DNA from: Streptantibioticus cattleyicolor NRRL 8057 = DSM 46488
GTDB lineage: Bacteria > Actinomycetota > Actinomycetes > Streptomycetales > Streptomycetaceae
DNA: 64,000 bases
Reading direction: 5' to 3'
NCBI RefSeq assembly: GCF_000240165.1
Contig: NC_017586.1
Span: 930,001-994,000 of the forward strand
Made by a program: the position numbers and the translations under genes. The notes beneath the pieces are model-generated. The model saw nothing but the letters and a program-made list of their open reading frames with translations. It had not been told where the DNA came from and did no database searches. Positions 12,868 to 64,000 of this stretch are shown piece after piece (positions within the stretch are counted from its first letter, which is position 1; every line of letters starts with the position of its first letter).

Positions 12868-14169
12868 TCAGCGGTCCAGCGGACGCCCCGCGGTCTCCGG
12901 CAGCACCACGTAGACGGCGGCCGAGACCAGGCAGAGCACCGCCACGTACCACGGGAACCACTCGGCGTGGCCGGCCTGCTGGAACCAGGTGCCGACGTAC
13001 GGCGCCGTACCGCCGAAGACCGCCACCGTCAGCGAGTAGGGGAAGCCGATGCCCGCGGCGCGCACCCGGGCCGGGAAGACCTCGGCGTTGACCGCGGCAG
13101 CCACCGAGGTGTAGCCGGTGAGCAGCACCATCCCCGCACACCCCACCAGCACCAGCGACAGCAGCGAACCGGTGAGCAGGTGCAGCAGCGGCACCACCAG
13201 CACCGCGAACCCCACCGCGAAGCCGATCAGCAGCGGCTTGCGGCCGATCCGGTCGGAGAGCATCCCGCCGAGCGGCTGGAGCACCGCGAAGAACGCCAGC
13301 GTGATGGTGCCCGCGGTCAGCGCGTCCCCCTTGCCGAGCCCCGCGTGGACGGTGGCGTAGGTCGGCAGATAGGTGGTCCAGGTGTAGTACGCGATGGTGC
13401 CGCCGACCGTGATGCCGCAGATCAGCAACGACTGGCGGGGGTGGCGGCGGAGCGCCTCGAAGAGCCCGGGGCGCGGCGCCCGCTGCTGCTCCTCACTGCG
13501 GGTCTCCACCGCGCCGCGCCGGATCCACAGCCCGACCAGCGAGATCACCGCGCCCACGGCGAACGCCACCCGCCAGCCCCACGAGGTCATCTGCGCGTCG
13601 GTCAGCACCTGCGCGAGCAGCGCCGCGAGCCCGGAGGCGACGAGCTGCCCGGCGGTGGTCGACACGTACTGGAAGCTGGAGAAGAGCCCGCGCCGGCCCG
13701 GACCGGCCGACTCCACCAGGAACGTGGTGGACGCGGCGAACTCCCCGCCCACCGACAGCCCTTGCAGCAGCCGCGCCACCACCAGCACCACCGGGCCCAG
13801 CACACCGGCGCTCGTGTACGTCGGCGTCACCGCAACCAGCAGGCTGCCGCCGCCCATCAGCACGATGGTCACACTCAGCGCCGCCCGCCGGCCGAGCCGG
13901 TCGGCCACCGCGCCCATCAGCAGCCCGCCGACCGGCCGCATGAAGAAGCCGACCGCGAAGACCGCGAACGTCGACAGCAGCGGCACCAGGGAGTTGCCGG
14001 CGCCCTTGGGGAAGATCTGGCCGGCGAAGTAGACGGCGAGGAAGGAGTAGGCGTACCAGTCGTACCACTCGACGGCGTTGCCGACGGAGGCCGCGGCGAG
14101 CTGCCGCACCGGCAGCCGTGCCGGGGAGGCGGCGGGACGGGACTGTGCTATCGGGGCCGAACCGGTCAT
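12868..14169 (-). CDS. MHS-family MFS transporter (carboxylate/osmolyte:H+ symporter-like)
   Basis: The 433-residue protein has 12 predicted membrane helices. It shows the metabolite:H+ symporter signature: 'GNAVEWYDWYAYSFLAVYFA' at the start, 'FFMRPVGGLLMGAVADRLGRR' after helix 2 and 'LLQGLSVGGEFAAS' in helix 4. The family carries alpha-ketoglutarate, shikimate, proline/betaine and other carboxylates. ATG 14169 follows AGAAGGA. It is divergent from lutABC with about 150 bp between starts, so it is a plausible lactate or related acid carrier, although the usual LldP-type permease is unrelated. Substrate is inferred from context only. Confidence 0.85.
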   Translation of the reverse strand: MTGSAPIAQSRPAASPARLPVRQLAAASVGNAVEWYDWYAYSFLAVYFAGQIFPKGAGNSLVPLLSTFAVFAVGFFMRPVGGLLMGAVADRLGRRAALSVTIVLMGGGSLLVAVTPTYTSAGVLGPVVLVVARLLQGLSVGGEFAASTTFLVESAGPGRRGLFSSFQYVSTTAGQLVASGLAALLAQVLTDAQMTSWGWRVAFAVGAVISLVGLWIRRGAVETRSEEQQRAPRPGLFEALRRHPRQSLLICGITVGGTIAYYTWTTYLPTYATVHAGLGKGDALTAGTITLAFFAVLQPLGGMLSDRIGRKPLLIGFAVGFAVLVVPLLHLLTGSLLSLVLVGCAGMVLLTGYTSVAAAVNAEVFPARVRAAGIGFPYSLTVAVFGGTAPYVGTWFQQAGHAEWFPWYVAVLCLVSAAVYVVLPETAGRPLDR

Positions 14170-57027: not shown

Positions 57028-58362
57028 ATGACGGGAATCGGGGTGGATCCGTACTGGGAACTCTCCTTCGGCACCGACGCGCGCCCGGATCCGGGCCAGC
57101 GCGACCGGCTGCTGCGCGGGGTGGCGACGACCGGGGTCACCGATCTGATCGTCTTCGCCCACGGCTGGAACAACGACCACTCCTCCGCGACCCGGCTGCA
57201 CCGGCGCTTCTTCACCCCCTTCCCGGCCCTGCTGGAACGAGCCCCCGCGCACGCCCGGGCGGCCGGCCGCCCCGCCCCCCGGGTCGGCTACACCGGGGTC
57301 TTCTGGCCCGCCCTGCGCTTCGCCGACGAGCCCATCCCCGACCACACCCCGACCCGGCTCAGTGAGCAGACCGCGCGCCTGGCCATCCAGCGCGGTCTGG
57401 ACAAGGTCACCCTCGACGCGCTGCTGGCGTTCTTCCCGGAGGCGGTGCGCGATCTGCACCGGATGGCGATACTGCTGCGCGAACGCGCCGAGAGCACCGA
57501 GCGGCTGGCCGAGTTCTGCACCCTGGCCCGGCGGCTGGCGGACGCCGGCGACCACGTGGCCGCCGCCGACCGGCGGGCCAGCGGCGCCCGTCCGGTGCTG
57601 CTGGACGGCGCCCCGGTCACCGTGTGCACCCGGCTCGCCGACGCGCTGGAGTCCACCGGCGCCGAGACCGTCCCGTCGGCCGCCCCGGAACCCGACGAGG
57701 AGGCCGACTCCGAACCCGGCGACGGCCCGCCCCCGTTCGTCCGGCTGTGGAGCGGCGCCCGCGAACTGCTGCGGCAGGCCACGTACCACCGTACGAAGGG
57801 GTACGCGCGCGCGGTCGGCGAGTCGGGGCTCGCCCCGGTGCTGGCCCGGCTGGCCACCGCCGCCCCCGGCACCCGGATCCACCTGGTGGGCCACAGCTAC
57901 GGCGCCCGGCTGGTGTGCTTCGCGCAGCGCGCGCTGCCGGCCGCGGCGCCGGCCACCGGTTCGCTGGTGCTCCTCCAAGGCGCCCTGTCCGTCTCGGCGT
58001 TCGGCCCCGACGGCGTGCTGCGCGGACTGCACCGGCGGGTGGACGGTCCGCTGGTGGCCTGCCACTCCACGTACGACGACGCGCTCGGCACGCTGTACCC
58101 GGCGGCCTCCCGGCTGCCCGGCGAGCCCGAGCCGCCCGGCGCCGTCGGCCACGAGGGGCTGCGGGAGGGACCGGCCGGGGTACGGCTCACCCTGGCCGAG
58201 ACCGCGCCCCGCTCGGGCCGGCCGTTCCCGGCGCGCGGTCACGTCAGCGTGGACGCCGGCGCGGTGGTGCGGCGCGGCCACCCGCCGATCGGCGCGCACA
58301 TGGACATCTGCCACGCGGAGTTGGCGAGGGTGGTGTTGCGGGCGGGGCACATCCTCCCGTGA
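57028..58362 (+). CDS. Alpha/beta-hydrolase-fold protein, unusual 444-aa form
   Basis: The 444-residue protein has the N-terminal strand 'TDLIVFAHGWNNDHSSATRL' with an oxyanion-like HGWNN, and a nucleophile elbow 'RIHLVGHSYGARLVCFAQRA' about residue 289. A helical insertion of about 200 residues separates the two, longer than a typical lid. It is probably an intracellular esterase or lipase-like hydrolase of unknown substrate. ATG 57028 is a clean start. It precedes the CDPS gene by 384 bp on the same strand; a functional link is possible but not shown. Confidence 0.75.
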   Translation: MTGIGVDPYWELSFGTDARPDPGQRDRLLRGVATTGVTDLIVFAHGWNNDHSSATRLHRRFFTPFPALLERAPAHARAAGRPAPRVGYTGVFWPALRFADEPIPDHTPTRLSEQTARLAIQRGLDKVTLDALLAFFPEAVRDLHRMAILLRERAESTERLAEFCTLARRLADAGDHVAAADRRASGARPVLLDGAPVTVCTRLADALESTGAETVPSAAPEPDEEADSEPGDGPPPFVRLWSGARELLRQATYHRTKGYARAVGESGLAPVLARLATAAPGTRIHLVGHSYGARLVCFAQRALPAAAPATGSLVLLQGALSVSAFGPDGVLRGLHRRVDGPLVACHSTYDDALGTLYPAASRLPGEPEPPGAVGHEGLREGPAGVRLTLAETAPRSGRPFPARGHVSVDAGAVVRRGHPPIGAHMDICHAELARVVLRAGHILP

Positions 58363-58376
58363 GGGGGCCTCCGGGG

Positions 58377-58392
58377 CGGGGGCGCGCCCCCG
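58377..58392. terminator. Perfect 16-bp palindrome, terminator-like
   Basis: CGGGGGCGCGCCCCCG lies 15 bp after the alpha/beta hydrolase stop. As a short perfect palindrome it could form a very stable hairpin that ends the preceding transcript. Confidence 0.45.
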
Positions 58393-58531
58393 AGGGGGGA
58401 CCCCGGTGGGTCGGGCGCCGGGGGTCGAGACCCCGGGGCGCCGGGACCCCAGGGGCGCGACGGCCCTGGGGGGCAGGGCACCGGGGCGGGGACGCCAGCG
58501 GCCCCGGGGGCGCGGGACGCCCGGGGGCGCC

Positions 58532-58578
58532 AGGGACCCGGAGAGGTCAGGGACCCGGAGGGGTCAAGGGACCCGGGG
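58532..58578. repeat. Degenerate tandem AGGGACCCGG repeats
   Basis: Three successive units beginning AGGGACCCGG (at 58532, 58549 and 58567; unit 17-18 bp) occur in the G-rich gap, the first two followed by AGAGGTC and AGGGGTCA. They look like replication-slippage products. Confidence 0.6.
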
Positions 58579-58746
58579 CCGGGACGGCGCTGGTCAACGG
58601 TGGCCTTGTCATATGGTCGGCCGAGTCATTCGCGCCGGGGCGTGCCCCTACGCGCCCTCAAGGTGACGATGCGCCACCGCGGCTCCGGGGAAGCACTCGG
58701 GGGACCGCCGAGGTTCGCGCGGTCGAGTGCACAGAGGGGCAAGAGC

Positions 58747-59583
58747 ATGCACGACAACGGTCATCGGCCCACCGCCGCCGGCGTCCGGCCGGGGACGGTC
58801 CAGGCGCGGCCGGCGGCCGGGACGGCCTCGCTCACCGCGCCGGCCCCTGCCCCTGCCCCCGCCCCGGAGCCCGCCCCCGCGACCGCCCCGGTGCCCGCGA
58901 TGCGCTCCGGCGACTTCAACTGCCGCCCCCTGACCCCCAACTGCGCCCGGGTCGTCGACGCCGGCGAACACGCCGTGGTCGGCGTCAGCCTCGGCAACAG
59001 CTACTTCCGCGGCGACATACTGCGCGCCCTGCTGCGCTGGCTCAGCGGACGGTTCGCCCAGCTCGACGTGGTGATCCCGGACTCCTCCTACCGCGACAAC
59101 CTGCTGGCCGCGGGGTACCAACCGGCGCACGCGGACGGCAAGGCGCACCGCGAGGCGGCCACCGCCCGCAGCCGCGTCCTGCGTTCATGGCGGGAGGCCG
59201 GCGTACCGCTCTCCGGCGACGCCCACGTCCACCTGCTCTCCGACCTCACCGCCAACCCGGCCTACCGCGCGCTGCGGCTGCGGGTGGAGCACGCGCTCCG
59301 CCTCGACCCCGAGTTGTACGCCGAGTGCCTGGCGATGAGCCGCGCGGCGCTGCGTTCCCAGCTCAAGGGGGTCACCCCGTCCGCCGCCCAGGCCGAGGCC
59401 GGGATCCAGTACCTCACCGCCGAACTCCCCTTCTTCATCGGCTCCGCCGAGCTGTTCGGGGTCTCCTCGTCGCTGTGCTTCTACCACAAGCCGGTGCCCG
59501 TCGCCGATCTGCTCTTCACCCGCCCCGGCCCGCTGCGCCCGCCACGCGAGCAGGGGTACGCCCTGATCCAGCCGGTGACGTAA
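58747..59583 (+). CDS. tRNA-dependent cyclodipeptide synthase (NYH subfamily)
   Basis: The 278-residue enzyme joins two aminoacyl-tRNAs into a cyclic dipeptide by a ping-pong mechanism. It matches AlbC along its core: VGVSLGNSYFRGD (catalytic Ser81, AlbC Ser37), 'GIQYLTAELPFFIG' (Tyr222 and Glu226, AlbC Tyr178/Glu182), and 'SSSLCFYHKPVPVADLLF' (Tyr246-His247). Asn84/Tyr246/His247 place it in the NYH subfamily. Residues about 30-51 are an Ala/Pro repeat (APAPAPAPEPAP) absent from AlbC; an ATG at 58900 would give a shorter protein. AGAGGGG precedes ATG 58747. The product is not predicted. A transporter gene follows 61 bp downstream. Confidence 0.9.
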   Translation: MHDNGHRPTAAGVRPGTVQARPAAGTASLTAPAPAPAPAPEPAPATAPVPAMRSGDFNCRPLTPNCARVVDAGEHAVVGVSLGNSYFRGDILRALLRWLSGRFAQLDVVIPDSSYRDNLLAAGYQPAHADGKAHREAATARSRVLRSWREAGVPLSGDAHVHLLSDLTANPAYRALRLRVEHALRLDPELYAECLAMSRAALRSQLKGVTPSAAQAEAGIQYLTAELPFFIGSAELFGVSSSLCFYHKPVPVADLLFTRPGPLRPPREQGYALIQPVT

Positions 59584-59644
59584 CGTCCAGCCCGCGAGAC
59601 AACGCGTCCCACCCATTGACTACCCGGCGCACCCCCGTGAGAGT

Positions 59645-60955
59645 GTGCCCAGCGTGATCGAGGACGTTGCACCCCAGGAAGCGGCGACCGGCGGGGCGGA
59701 GAGCCTGCGACGGGTGGCGGTGGCCAGTTTCGTCGGAACCGCCATCGAATTCTACGATTTCTACATCTACGGCACCGCTGCCGCCCTCGTACTCAACCAC
59801 GCCTTCTTCCCCAACCTCTCGCCGCTCAACGCCACGCTCGCCTCGTTCTCCACCTACGCGGTGGCGTTCGTCGCGCGGCCGGTGGGGTCGGTGCTCTTCG
59901 GACACTTCGGGGACCGGGTGGGACGCAAGTCGGTGCTGGTCGTCTCGCTGCTGCTGATGGGGCTGTCCACCGCGCTGGTGGGGGCGCTGCCCGGGTACGG
60001 GACGTGGGGGGCGGCGGCGCCGGTGCTGCTGGTGGTGCTCCGGTTCACCCAGGGGATCGGGCTGGGCGGCGAGTGGGGCGGTGCCGCGCTGCTGGCGGTG
60101 GAGCACGCGCCGGGCCGCCGCCGCGGACTGTACGCGGCCTTCCCGCAACTGGGGCCCTCCGTCGGCTTCTTCGCGGCCACCGGGATCTTCTGGGTGCTCT
60201 CCGGCTGCCTCAGCGACGCCGCGTTCACCTCGTGGGGGTGGCGGATCCCCTTCCTGCTCTCCTTCGTCCTGGTCGCGGTGGGGCTCTTCGTACGGCTGAA
60301 GATCAGCGAGACACCGGTCTTCGCCCGGGCCATGGCGGCCAACGAGGCGGGCCGCGTGCCGGTGGCCGACGTACTCCGCCGCCACCCGCGTGAACTCCTG
60401 CTGGGCGCCGGCGGCATGGTGGTGGCCTACGGCCTGTTCTACACCGCCACCACCTACTGCCTGGCCTACGCCACCGGAACGCTGAAGCTGGCGCGCGGCA
60501 CGATGCTCGGGCTGTCCATGGTCGCCTGCGTCTTCCTGGCCGCCGGCACCTGGCTGGCCGCCACCCGCTCCGACCGCGCCGGCCGACGCACCCTGGTCCT
60601 CGCCGGCTCCGGCGCGGCGGCCATCTGGGGCCTCGTCCTCTTCCCCCTCCTCGACACCAAGCAACCCCTGCTCGTCGCCGTGGCCATCGGCGGCGCCCTC
60701 TTCCTCATGGGCGTGATCTACGGCCCGATGGGCGCCTTCCTCCCCGAACTCTTCTCCACCCACGTCCGCTACTCCGGCGCCTCCCTCGCCTACAACCTCG
60801 GCGGCGTCCTCGGAGGCTCGGTGGCCCCCCTGGTCTCCACCCGCCTCCAAGCCGCCTACGGCTCCCACGCGGTGGGGTGGTACCTGACGGCGATGGCGCT
60901 GGTGTCGGTGGGGTGTGTGCTGGCGCTGCCGGAAACCCGGGAACGGGAGCTGTAG
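59645..60955 (+). CDS. MHS-family MFS transporter adjacent to the CDPS
   Basis: The 436-residue permease has 'ASFVGTAIEFYDFYIYGTAA', 'FVARPVGSVLFGHFGDRVGR' and 'RFTQGIGLGGEWGGAALLAV', the MHS signatures, with 12 predicted helices. It starts at GTG 59645, 61 bp after the CDPS stop, on the same strand, so the pair is likely co-transcribed. It is a different branch from the lut-linked permease at 12868-14169. Export of the cyclic dipeptide (or import of a related metabolite) is a testable guess. The ribosome site is weak; GTG 59654 is an alternative. Confidence 0.88.
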   Translation: MPSVIEDVAPQEAATGGAESLRRVAVASFVGTAIEFYDFYIYGTAAALVLNHAFFPNLSPLNATLASFSTYAVAFVARPVGSVLFGHFGDRVGRKSVLVVSLLLMGLSTALVGALPGYGTWGAAAPVLLVVLRFTQGIGLGGEWGGAALLAVEHAPGRRRGLYAAFPQLGPSVGFFAATGIFWVLSGCLSDAAFTSWGWRIPFLLSFVLVAVGLFVRLKISETPVFARAMAANEAGRVPVADVLRRHPRELLLGAGGMVVAYGLFYTATTYCLAYATGTLKLARGTMLGLSMVACVFLAAGTWLAATRSDRAGRRTLVLAGSGAAAIWGLVLFPLLDTKQPLLVAVAIGGALFLMGVIYGPMGAFLPELFSTHVRYSGASLAYNLGGVLGGSVAPLVSTRLQAAYGSHAVGWYLTAMALVSVGCVLALPETREREL

Positions 60956-61001
60956 GCACCGCTCGCGGTACCGTCACAACCTCCGACCGAGGAAGGTGAC
61001 C

Positions 61002-61331
61002 ATGCCGCGAGACGACGACTACCTCGCCGTTCTGACCACGACGGACACCGAGGACCGGGCCCGCGAACTGGCCGCGACCGCCGTCGACGAGCGCCTCGCC
61101 GCCTGCGCCCAGATCGACGGCCCGATCCGCAGCCTCTACCGCTGGGACGGCAAGGTCCAGGACGACCAGGAATGGCGGGTGCTCTACAAGACTTCGACCG
61201 ACCGCTACCCGGAGCTTGAGGCGCATATCAAGAGCGTGCACACCTACGACACCCCCGAGATCATCGCCGTGCCGATCACGGAAGGCAGCGGCGAGTACCT
61301 GTCATGGCTGCGCGCCGAGACGAGGCCGTGA
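61002..61331 (+). CDS. cutA: CutA1 divalent-cation tolerance protein
   Basis: The 109-residue protein has the CutA1 features: 'YLAVLTTTDTEDRARELAAT', 'ERLAACAQIDGPIRSLYRWD', 'EWRVLYKTSTDRYPELEAHI' and 'HTYDTPEIIAVPITEGSGEYLSWL'. It forms a ferredoxin-like trimer and is linked to copper/divalent-cation tolerance. GAGGAAGG precedes ATG 61002. It is a single gene, convergent to the HD-domain gene. Confidence 0.95.
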   Translation: MPRDDDYLAVLTTTDTEDRARELAATAVDERLAACAQIDGPIRSLYRWDGKVQDDQEWRVLYKTSTDRYPELEAHIKSVHTYDTPEIIAVPITEGSGEYLSWLRAETRP

Positions 61332-61405
61332 GCTGAGGCCTCGCGGAGCAGTCGGGCTTTGCCATTGCCGACCCGGCCCGGGCCTGCCTCCGCTGCTGTG
61401 TCAGC

Positions 61406-61981
61406 TCAGGCGAGGTAAGTCTGCTGCCACTGAATGGAGTCCATGCACAGGGCGGCCTCCGCCAGTGCCTGGGCCGAGGCCGTCTTGAGCGTGGCAAGAC
61501 TGCTGTCGATCCATGGCTGTACGTTCGCGCAGCCTTGCTCCCGGTACTCGACGGCCTGCAAGAGGCATTCGAGCTTGTCGGCGTCATGGGCCACGATGAC
61601 TTCGAGCGAGTCGCCGGTCTCGTACTCGTTGACCACTTGCTGTACGCCCGCCTTCACCGCGGGATGCGCCGCGGAGACCTGGTCGGCCGTGACCCGCTCG
61701 TTCGACGCCGCTTGCAGATAGCGGCGCCCGATGTGCGGGATGTCTCCGATCCGCGTCTCCTGGGTGTCGTGGAACAGGCAGAGCAACGCCACCTTCGCCG
61801 GGTCCGCCCCCTCCATCATGGCGAGCACCGCGCCGATCACGCCGGTCCGGAAGCTGTGCTCAGCGATGGTCTCGGGGTCCTTCACCCCAGCAATCCACCA
61901 GCCCGACCGCTTGGCCCGCTTCAGCATCCCCATTTCCAGCAGGAATCCGGCAGTCCCGGCGGCTTCCTCGTTCTTCGGCAC
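61406..61981 (-). CDS. HD-domain phosphohydrolase (5'-nucleotidase YfbR-like)
   Basis: The 191-residue protein has 'DPETIAEHSFRTGVIGAVLA' (first His of the HD set), 'ALLCLFHDTQETRIGDIPHI' (His-Asp pair) and 'VIVAHDADKLECLLQAVEYR' (third metal Asp). It resembles the HD3/YfbR family that dephosphorylates deoxynucleotides. GTG 61981 follows GGAGG. It lies downstream of a frameshifted regulator in the same direction, a grouping often seen in actinomycetes. Confidence 0.85.
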   Translation of the reverse strand: MPKNEEAAGTAGFLLEMGMLKRAKRSGWWIAGVKDPETIAEHSFRTGVIGAVLAMMEGADPAKVALLCLFHDTQETRIGDIPHIGRRYLQAASNERVTADQVSAAHPAVKAGVQQVVNEYETGDSLEVIVAHDADKLECLLQAVEYREQGCANVQPWIDSSLATLKTASAQALAEAALCMDSIQWQQTYLA

Positions 61982-62103
61982 GACGCCTCCAGTCGGTTCC
62001 GTCTGTCAATCGCTTACCAGGAGTTGCCGCACCTCGGCGGAGGTCACGCCAAGACTGTAGTTGAGCCCCTACCGCGGCAGTCGGGGCCCAACTGGTGCCG
62101 AAA

Positions 62104-63446
62104 TTAAGCTGCCGCGACTTCCGGCAACGCCTTCAAGCGATCACGGAACTCCCGGACGGCGGGTACCTTCTTATAGCTGCCGAGCTTGCTGGAAAAGGCT
62201 GCAAGGCACTCAACTGCCCTCGCGGAGGACACTCGTTCTTCAAGCAGAGCAAGCCCGCGGTTGGCCGCGTCGAGGGCACCATGCAGATCCTTGCCCTCCA
62301 ACCGGGCTTGCGCCAGGCGACCCGAGCGTACGGCTTGGTCCCGAGGAACCGCCTTCTCGATCGAGTCAGCAAGAGCGCGCGTTGCCTTGTCCACCTGCCC
62401 CGAGCGCAAAAGAACCTTGCCGCGACTGGAAGCGATCTGCCCTTCGCCATACCAGCTCAGCCAGTCCGAACGGTGTCCGTTCGACCGGTCCCAGCTTGTC
62501 TCGGAGAGGTGCAGTGCTGCCGCTGCCCGACGGTGGTCCCCCTGCCGTGACAGAGCCACGGCCCTGTGCAGGTGCAGGAACGAGCAAGTGGAGGACGGCA
62601 GCTTGGCCGGTCCCTTGCTCAAGGCGGTTTCGACCAACGTCACGCGTTCGCCATCCTGCCCTGTTTCCGAGATGTGCACGCCCATCTCCGCCAGGACGAA
62701 GGCACCGAGATCGTCATCGCCAGACGCTTGAGCCGATCGCAGAGCGGCAACGTAGTGCTGTTGTCCGGCGGACTTGAGGCCGGCGTCATAGGCCATCCAG
62801 CCGGTCAAGTACGCGACTTGTGCAGCGAGCCAGTGCAGTCGCGTGCCCACCGCATCCGAGTAACGAGCGTTCTTGAGCAAGGCAGTGATCAGTTCGAGGT
62901 CGCTGCGCGACGACTCCAGCAGCCGCGCTCCCCCATCTGATCATCCAACGTTCGCAGCGTGACGACACGCTGCTCGATGGTGGTCACCATGGCGTCTGTC
63001 ACCCGGTCACCCTTGGCGGCAGCGGCAAAGGCTGAGGGCGCCTCGGCCCAGCTCGCCGCCAGCGTTGCGAGTGCGCTTCCAGTGATGGTGAGGAAACCCC
63101 TCCGGTCCATGTGGCCGCTCCCGACGAGATCCGTTAGTACCTCCACGGTACCCGCGGGAGTCCATGGCGCGTCCAGACAAGTTACACCGAACACCGGGAG
63201 CCACTTTGGCCACGCCTTTGGATCAACCTGGTCCAAAGGCACTCCGATCATGCGTGCGATGGCTCGTTGGGCCCTGGCTTCAGGCCGCCTACCGTAACGC
63301 TTCCACTTGTATACGTTCGGGTAGGACGTCTGGATCGGTTCACCCAGCTCGTCGGCAGCTTTGACTAGCAGCTTTGTGAACTCGACAGGCTTCCAGTTGT
63401 ACATCTCACGGAGACAGGTTAACGGGTGAGACCACTGTGTCTGCAT
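62104..63446 (-). pseudogene. XRE/TPR-type regulator gene with a -1 frameshift
   Basis: The first half (MQTQWSHPLTCLREMYNWKP, with a helix-turn-helix-like N-terminus, and 'MDRRGFLTITGSALATLAAS' in its middle) ends abnormally at 'QMGERGCWSRRAATSN'. The second half (ALLKNARYSDAVGTRLHWLA, TPR-like helices to 'RLKALPEVAAA') lies in the next frame from 62880. Adding one G in the GGGG after codon ATG (62925-62940) restores a continuous protein of about 447 residues. GGAGGG precedes ATG 63446. A homopolymer sequencing error is as likely as a true pseudogene. Its third codon positions are less GC-rich than those of its neighbours. Confidence 0.75.
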
Positions 63447-63566
63447 CAAGCCCTCCGTTTCGCCAGCCCGTTCGAAACTAGCTGCATCCGCTCGGATCAA
63501 TGAGCGCACGAGCCAAATGGCAACATCGGGCAATATTCCCCTCCCCCCTAATCCCCCGCAACGCTT

Positions 63567-63596
63567 CTTCCCGCCGGAGTCCACTCCGGCGGGAAG
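63567..63596. promoter_or_regulatory. 30-bp perfect palindrome between divergent genes
   Basis: CTTCCCGCCGGAGT and its complement (14-bp arms) around a CC centre form a very stable hairpin. It lies 72 bp upstream of the ATP-binding protein gene and 121 bp upstream of the divergent regulator. It could be an operator or a transcription attenuator. A second palindrome (GTACG-TC-CGTAC) follows at 63608-63619. Confidence 0.55.
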
Positions 63597-63667
63597 CGAG
63601 CGCAACCGTACGTCCGTACGAAGCTGAACTGTGTTTGCCTCCTCCAATGCAAGTGTCAGGAGCCGAC

Positions 63668-64000
63668 ATGACCTACGTAGTCAGTACGCGCTTCTCCATC
63701 CCCGCGGACCTCACCTGTATCAAGGCAGCCCGTAACCACATCGTCCGCATGGTCGCCGACTGGAATGGACTTGATGTGACGGCTCTCGGCGACCTCCGCT
63801 CGGTGGCCTCGGAGTTGCTGGCCAACGGGGTCGAGCACGCTCGTGGAACACCACTGACGATCCGTCTGCGTCAGCGGGACCGGCGGCTCCTGCTCGAAGT
63901 CTTCGACGGCAGCCCGGATGCTCCGCGACCCCGCTGCGTTCCCGCCGGGGCCGAACGCGGACGGGGCCTGGTCGTCATCGCCGCCCTGGCGGAGGAGTGG
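63668..64000 (+). CDS. Anti-sigma-like ATP-binding protein (partial)
   Basis: The first 111 codons of a HATPase_c_2 protein of the RsbW/SpoIIAB type: 'LRSVASELLANGVEHARGTP' holds the N box (Glu and Asn), 'LEVFDGSPDAPRPR' the G1 box and 'GAERGRGLVVIAALAEEW' the G2 box. In Streptomyces these small kinases bind anti-sigma antagonists or act alone. AGGAG precedes ATG 63668. The 3' end lies outside the window. It is divergent from the frameshifted regulator, suggesting joint control. Confidence 0.85.
   Translation, partial: MTYVVSTRFSIPADLTCIKAARNHIVRMVADWNGLDVTALGDLRSVASELLANGVEHARGTPLTIRLRQRDRRLLLEVFDGSPDAPRPRCVPAGAERGRGLVVIAALAEEW

Follow-up and report, generated by a model that had tools for sequence, protein, structure and literature searches.

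We analysed a 64,000-nucleotide stretch of the genome of Streptantibioticus cattleyicolor NRRL 8057, also known as Streptomyces cattleya (contig NC_017586.1, positions 930,001 to 994,000; referred to as the window), and found that it encodes an intact cyclodipeptide synthase (CDPS) of the NYH subfamily with predicted catalytic activity. Judged from its substrate pocket and its position in a CDPS tree, the enzyme most likely belongs to the tryptophan group and makes cyclo(Trp-Trp). The locus appears to be an orphan Trp-type CDPS whose product is probably tailored in trans, with a methyltransferase and a prenyltransferase encoded on another contig of the same genome as candidate partners.

The gene product matches PF16715 over the full model (positions 1-220 of 220; E 2.3e-81, 273 bits against a cut-off of 27) and the NCBIfam model TIGR04539 with 249 bits (cut-off 45). 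Residues Ser81, Asn84, Tyr222, Glu226, Tyr246 and His247 align with Ser37, Asn40, Tyr178, Glu182, Tyr202 and His203 of AlbC, and Asn84 completes the Asn-Tyr-His (NYH) trio. A sequence-only reading of the window had described a 278-aa CDPS with the full active-site set; both model matches and the residues, found at the places it had named, confirm this, and in the alignment with AlbC-type enzymes that it had suggested the catalytic residues line up and the pocket falls into the Trp group. The Pfam match covers amino acids 57-276, and the N-terminal 56 residues outside it form a partly Ala/Pro-rich extension. An alternative start would be the ATG at 58900, in front of which no ribosome-binding site was seen by eye. 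The closest relative found shares 53% identity and comes from Goodfellowiella (locus L007); a scan of named genomes for CDPS relatives, which used short exact peptides, yielded one relative. In a sample of 71 genomes of the family, CDPS matches at E 1e-30 were obtained in 25 genomes, including our own, and the best match outside the own genome was 46% identical. None of the 73 other genomes in a sample of the class gave a CDPS match at E 1e-35.

In order to predict the product we used AlbC numbering to locate the P1 and P2 pocket positions and compared the resulting motifs with those in Table 2 of Gondry 2018 (this paper and those named below are cited from excerpts). The controls agreed with the printed motifs: L097 gives LGVPLLLA/ASVGKID, an exact match to the Trp/Pro row, L059 gives LGFPWLVF/TGARRMD with both pockets exact, and Rv2275-like loci show the exact P1 motif VGVTMLFN and, in some cases, the exact P2 motif. 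The pockets of the window CDPS read VGVPLFFC (P1) and MAASKVP (P2), the former being close to LGIPLFFV of Trp-accepting enzymes. According to Gondry 2018, a Pro at the fourth P1 place marks the Trp-accepting enzymes 73-75. Furthermore, Yao 2018 describes cyclo(Trp-Trp) synthases, unlike DmtB1-3, as carrying Phe186, a hydrophilic residue 200 and Pro207; by AlbC alignment the window CDPS has Phe186, Cys200 and Pro207, in agreement with this pattern if Cys is read as hydrophilic. In a CDPS tree of 40 rows it falls into a six-row clade with L007, L096, L098, L009 and L097 (support 99/95). One CDPS of this species, CDPS14, yielded cyclo(Trp-Trp) when expressed in E. coli (PMC6592928). CDPS14 may be the window gene or the CDPS of L009; the excerpts of that paper leave its identity among the three CDPS genes of the genome unstated.

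Several observations weigh against this assignment. Gondry 2018 also prints Pro at the fourth P1 place for Pro-, Leu- and Cys-type pockets, and this place is numbered 119 in that paper and 67 by our AlbC-based fit. Val156, the single P2 residue that Yao 2018 describes as common to its aligned CDPSs, is replaced by Ala in the window CDPS and in L009, and is kept in L007, L096, L097 and L098. In the tree, the sister pairing of the window CDPS with L007 is supported at only 95/70, and L097 is a long branch.

The genome contains three CDPS matches in all, each on the chromosomal contig (C2), and PMC4159871 likewise reports that S. cattleya holds several distantly related CDPS genes. L009 encodes a second Trp-type CDPS whose pocket resembles that of the window CDPS; about 4 kb from it lie genes for a P-type ATPase (by motif) and for a copper-chaperone-like protein (by eye). 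The third CDPS, L008, has the highest PF16715 score of the three, but in the alignment its catalytic Ser is replaced by Gly and the equivalents of Asn, Tyr202 and His203 are also lost. Its gene setting, next to an ACP, KASIII, ATP-grasp and PLP-decarboxylase cluster, is the same as in L056, whose CDPS keeps Ser, Asn and Tyr.

We then asked what accompanies CDPS genes elsewhere. Thirty-seven other CDPS loci, L008 and L009 among them, were taken with their flanks, and tailoring genes within 3 kb were counted by homology to eight reference proteins, several of which come from these loci themselves. A P450, methyltransferase or prenyltransferase like the reference set was present in 27 of the 37 loci and absent from 10, L009 being among those with no such neighbour; methyltransferase-like open reading frames of L059 and L065, seen by eye, were missed by the set. 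By this measure it is not unusual for a CDPS to lack tailoring genes in its vicinity. The relatives of the window CDPS are accompanied by two methyltransferases (its sister L007), by a methyltransferase, a prenyltransferase of the squalene/phytoene-synthase family and a second methyltransferase (L096), by a methyltransferase, a membrane terpene cyclase and a prenyltransferase (L097), or by a P450-like gene, a DUF3050 protein and an AMP-ligase (L098).

When the L096 methyltransferase was used to search the own genome, one of the eight matches stood out as strong (53% identity, E 1.1e-87; next match 1.3e-7). It lies on contig C1, in stretch L159, next to a PF00494 prenyltransferase gene; the two genes overlap by 4 bp, and both their order and this overlap are those of L096. 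The methyltransferase is 52.6% identical to the companion of L007 and 52.1% to that of L096, and the prenyltransferase is 38% and 36% identical to those of L096 and L097, respectively. No CDPS was recognised in the 19.9 kb of L159 around the pair. Because a C1 methyltransferase shows 100% identity with a pSCAT protein of Streptantibioticus cattleyicolor NRRL 8057, we infer that C1 is the pSCAT megaplasmid and that the window lies on the chromosome. The sequence-only reading had suggested that an unmodified cyclic dipeptide could be made. This suggestion is weakened by the homology of the megaplasmid pair to the pair at a relative's CDPS and by the precedent of nocardioazine B, in whose pathway the CDPS loci lie apart from the locus for prenyltransferase, methyltransferase and racemase (PMC10156859).

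Here, too, there are points on the other side. No racemase like NozR was recognised by eye in L159, of which four genes were Pfam-scanned, the rest of the genome being unsearched. The methyltransferase family also occurs in two further genomes, G024 and G049, with two copies each (50-56%), no prenyltransferase or CDPS match beside them and no CDPS match at E 1e-30 in either genome; it is therefore the pair, and not the methyltransferase alone, that points to diketopiperazines. L009 groups with L096, where the pair adjoins the CDPS, and with L098 (100/98), so the pair may serve L009 only. As to the literature, none of the matches listed from open-access sources, seen in excerpts, describes a prenylated diketopiperazine isolated from S. 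cattleya. The copies in G024 and G049 (L170 9171-10807 and L171 422-4548) lie near each other and adjoin an unrelated protein of 560-568 aa that looks carbamoyltransferase-like by eye.

The CDPS gene is part of an islet that continues 487 bases past the window end (Table 1). The left-flank hydrolase gene, whose Pfam hydrolase match is below cut-off, had eight matches in 41 genomes, including our own, and we read the synteny in the best five of the seven other genomes (G012, G006, G015, G005 and G008; the weakest, G025 and G026, were left out). In all five relatives the genes from both window flanks form one block with few changes, the islet is absent and the hydrolase gene directly adjoins the convergent right-flank gene, whose end in our genome lies about 488 bases beyond the window. 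The spacing of the two flanking genes is 22-80 bp in four relatives, 500 bp in one and about 6,125 bp here. Since none of the five carries the islet, it is most simply explained by parsimony as a gain in the S. cattleya lineage that comprises the genes for CDPS, permease, CutA, HD protein, NsdA-like regulator and ATPase. The GC content at third codon positions (GC3) is host-like in the CDPS core (0.95), the permease (0.93) and CutA (0.91; window median 0.95) and lower in the HD gene (0.87) and in the two regulator parts (0.72 and 0.69); given these differences, the islet may have been assembled in more than one step. The regulator is split over two frames: its N part matches positions 1-165 of the NF053720 model and its C part positions 185-432.

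Scans of islet proteins with Pfam and NCBIfam revealed no recognisable P450, methyltransferase, prenyltransferase or oxidase among those covered. The earlier statement that the CDPS has no tailoring enzyme next to it thus holds, but only locally. SDR, AMP-ligase, TetR and zinc-alcohol-dehydrogenase genes at 52.3-56.8 kb were considered as partners and rejected, each being found at the same place in at least four of the five CDPS-less relatives; the nearby SDR (56024) and AMP-ligase (54241) genes are each present in four of these five and are therefore backbone. A search of the left junction (58360-58760) for direct repeats gave no repeat family and two imperfect inverted pairs. The islet DNA matches 211 plasmid records; each of the 15 listed covers one gene, either the permease gene or the HD gene. 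On a Streptomyces chartreusis plasmid, a homologue of the HD-domain gene has a helix-turn-helix gene as its neighbour. The samples searched yielded no second genome with the islet arrangement. Far from the CDPS, the window contains a second MFS permease gene (12868-14109, minus strand; PF00083 and PF07690).

Table 1. Features of the islet and its left flank, further CDPS genes of the genome and the megaplasmid pair. Positions refer to the window unless a locus or contig is named; genes were called with our own GC-frame script, not with a standard gene finder.
Feature	Position	Strand	Basis
Cyclodipeptide synthase, NYH subfamily, 278 aa	58747..59583	+	PF16715, catalytic residues
MFS permease, metabolite:H+ symporter-like (MHS-like)	59645..60955 (start GTG 59645 or 59654)	+	TIGR00883, PF00083, PF07690
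CutA-like protein	61002..61331	+	PF03091 E 1.8e-36; NCBIfam CutA models below cut-off
HD-domain (YfbR-like) protein	61406..61981	-	PF13023 E 8.8e-27
NsdA-family regulator, split over two frames	62104..63647 (N part 62889-63647, C part 62104-62880)	-	NF053720
Histidine-kinase-like ATPase / RsbA-type, cut off by the window end, start unsettled	63500..64000	+	PF13581 E 1.4e-10; NF041045 below cut-off
Islet, probable gain	58363..64000, continuing past the window end, ~6,125 bases in total	.	synteny
Left-flank alpha/beta-hydrolase-like backbone gene	57028..58362	+	44-53% orthologues in five relatives
Methyltransferase-prenyltransferase pair	L159 8590-9621 and 9618-10433		PF00494 and methyltransferase families
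Second Trp-type CDPS	L009 9440-10144 / C2 255966-256640		similar pocket
Third CDPS	L008 9667-10359 / C2 4574690-4575394		PF16715

The permease gene follows the CDPS gene at a distance of 61 bp if it starts at GTG 59645, as the sequence-only reading had stated, and of 70 bp if it starts at GTG 59654. That reading had called the protein an MHS permease. Among 16 NCBIfam families the best match is indeed the metabolite/H+ symporter model TIGR00883, over nearly the whole model and with E 1e-126, but the score of 423.3 bits is 20 bits short of the curated cut-off (443.45), and we therefore use the name MHS-like. PF00083 and PF07690 both score over their cut-offs. MHS carriers are H+-coupled uptake systems. 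The CutA gene starts 46 bp past the permease, which results in a three-gene run on one strand. No promoter-like or terminator-like sites were found in 58300-61100, where 0.7 terminators would be expected by chance, and their absence neither proves nor excludes a CDPS-permease operon.

Homologues of the permease are common: at E 1e-60 matches were obtained in 35 of 41 genomes, our own included. For the seven other genomes that ranked highest we read the neighbourhood of the best homologue, one per genome (a second, similarly ranked copy in G009 was left out), and none of the stretches read holds a CDPS. Conversely, no homologue occurs in any of the 37 other CDPS loci, a test that covers this permease and not MFS carriers in general. 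Taking a conserved CDPS neighbourhood as the mark of a dedicated exporter, we found it on neither side. The claim that the transporter moves the CDPS product, a reasonable one, was thus not borne out. In the open-access literature we found no paper linking cyclodipeptides with the MHS family.

Taken together, we favour an account in which a Trp-type CDPS lies on a gained islet, is tailored in trans and stands beside a permease that is not its dedicated exporter; as a whole, we see this account as evenly poised between right and wrong. The CDPS would most likely take two Trp-tRNAs and form cyclo(L-Trp-L-Trp) by the AlbC route, with transfer of Trp onto Ser81, a dipeptidyl enzyme and cyclisation. 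The islet of ~6 kb was probably gained between two convergent backbone genes. Cyclo(Trp-Trp) would then most likely serve in trans as substrate for the megaplasmid methyltransferase and the phytoene-synthase-like prenyltransferase, giving a methylated and/or prenylated indole diketopiperazine that resembles nocardioazine B, and the L009 CDPS probably supplies the same cyclic-dipeptide pool. The permease is most likely an islet passenger or a metabolite uptake carrier. That the indole-diketopiperazine pathway is split across replicons, two chromosomal cyclo(Trp-Trp) synthases feeding the pair on the 1.8-Mb megaplasmid, we propose tentatively, at somewhat less than even likelihood.

The pair might instead work with the L009 CDPS only, in which case the window CDPS would independently supply plain cyclo(Trp-X). 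The grouping of L009 with L096, which adjoins the same pair, speaks for this, whereas the methyltransferase at L007 is as near to the megaplasmid enzyme as that of L096, and the 19.9-kb L009 stretch is without a match to either gene of the pair; we place this possibility on the unlikely side. A minimal make-and-export locus, with the CDPS releasing an unmodified cyclic dipeptide and the permease exporting it, seems distinctly unlikely to us. Here the missing homologues at other CDPS loci and the CDPS-free permease neighbourhoods, the best model being an H+ symporter of an uptake group, and the tailoring pair in trans have to be set against a short distance on the same strand within one islet. 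With no terminator-like site between the two genes, co-transcription is possible, a point against our account. Moreover, a survey of 93,107 genomes reports that all resistance domains recurring close to CDPSs belonged to efflux systems, most often MFS (Skinnider 2018), the MFS carrier YvmA secretes pulcherriminic acid in Bacillus (PMC11610984), and at L007 an AraC-type regulator and an MFS_1 gene of another kind lie past the CDPS, the latter about 0.8 kb off.

Could the islet be a decaying or silent passenger whose genes make nothing useful? The broken NsdA-like regulator and the lack of a second genome with this arrangement in our samples would fit, yet the genes for CDPS, permease and CutA are all intact and their GC3 is host-like, and the window CDPS has all its catalytic residues, unlike L008; we regard this explanation as highly doubtful. 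It is very improbable that the permease, instead of exporting the CDPS product, supplies the enzyme by taking up an aromatic or keto-acid precursor. The shikimate transporter is its second-best NCBIfam match, far below the cut-off (315 versus 538 bits), and about 240 bp separate the nearest homologue (72%, G021) from a ketol-acid-reductoisomerase-like gene, itself a model match below cut-off; however, the G021 permease ranks the models identically, and the own genome holds five permease matches at E 1e-60.

For genome mining, the account carries two corrections: the absence of tailoring genes beside a CDPS does not imply an unmodified product, and the neighbour gene of a CDPS is not necessarily its exporter. 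Naming two megaplasmid genes as candidate CDPS partners offers a direct test of a replicon-split diketopiperazine pathway in a well-known antibiotic producer. If the pathway is indeed split, gain or loss of the islet or the plasmid would switch the product.

CDPS genes also occur in other settings. One clade is found in heavy-metal resistance islands of Streptomyces plasmids (L061 7944-8672, L062 7965-8672, L063 5956-6663 and L064 5956-6663). Three of these CDPSs are at least 95% identical and have a heavy-metal P-type ATPase gene within about 20 bp downstream; the fourth (54.5% identical) is followed within about 20 bp by genes for a BlaI/CopY regulator, an M56 peptidase and CopC. These CDPSs possibly make a metal-responsive cyclic dipeptide, and we found no paper in the open-access literature linking a cyclodipeptide synthase with a P-type ATPase; a search on copper resistance likewise showed nothing on this connection. 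With CutA on the islet and CDPSs in such plasmid islands, a metal-resistance role was considered for the islet as well; it was dropped for the window CDPS because the metal-island CDPSs belong to another clade and their pockets are unlike its own. Further CDPS genes, 24-26% identical to the window CDPS, lie on Priestia, Legionella lytica and Staphylococcus plasmids.

Among known systems, Amir_4627/Amir_4628 of Actinosynnema mirum, a cyclo(Trp-Trp) CDPS with an N-methyltransferase (PMC4159871; compared by description), shares the Trp-specific CDPS and a methyltransferase companion as found at the sister locus L007, but there the methyltransferase adjoins the CDPS, which is not the case in the window. 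The drimentine loci dmt1-3 (PMC6173783) are related through L097, which belongs to the same CDPS clade and combines a dmt-type gene set with the printed Trp/Pro motif; the prenyltransferase family is the same. In contrast to our locus they are compact, with prenyltransferase and membrane cyclase, and the window pocket carries F186, Cys200 and P207 as in cyclo(Trp-Trp) makers. CDPS14 (PMC6592928), from the same species as the window, yields the product predicted here. The nocardioazine B system of Nocardiopsis sp. CMB-M0232 (noz/ncd CDPSs and noz2 locus) was compared by gene types, without Noz protein sequences. It differs in that Gondry 2018 places NozA in another Trp group, cW2X, in the racemase of its tailoring locus, for which no counterpart was recognised by eye in the 19.9 kb of L159 (rest of the genome unsearched), and in that the published loci lie on one chromosome whereas those of S. 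cattleya lie on two contigs. Both systems nevertheless have cyclo(Trp-Trp)-type CDPSs apart from the tailoring locus, a phytoene-synthase-like prenyltransferase and a methyltransferase at that separate locus, as seen for the L159 pair, and two candidate CDPSs per one tailoring locus.

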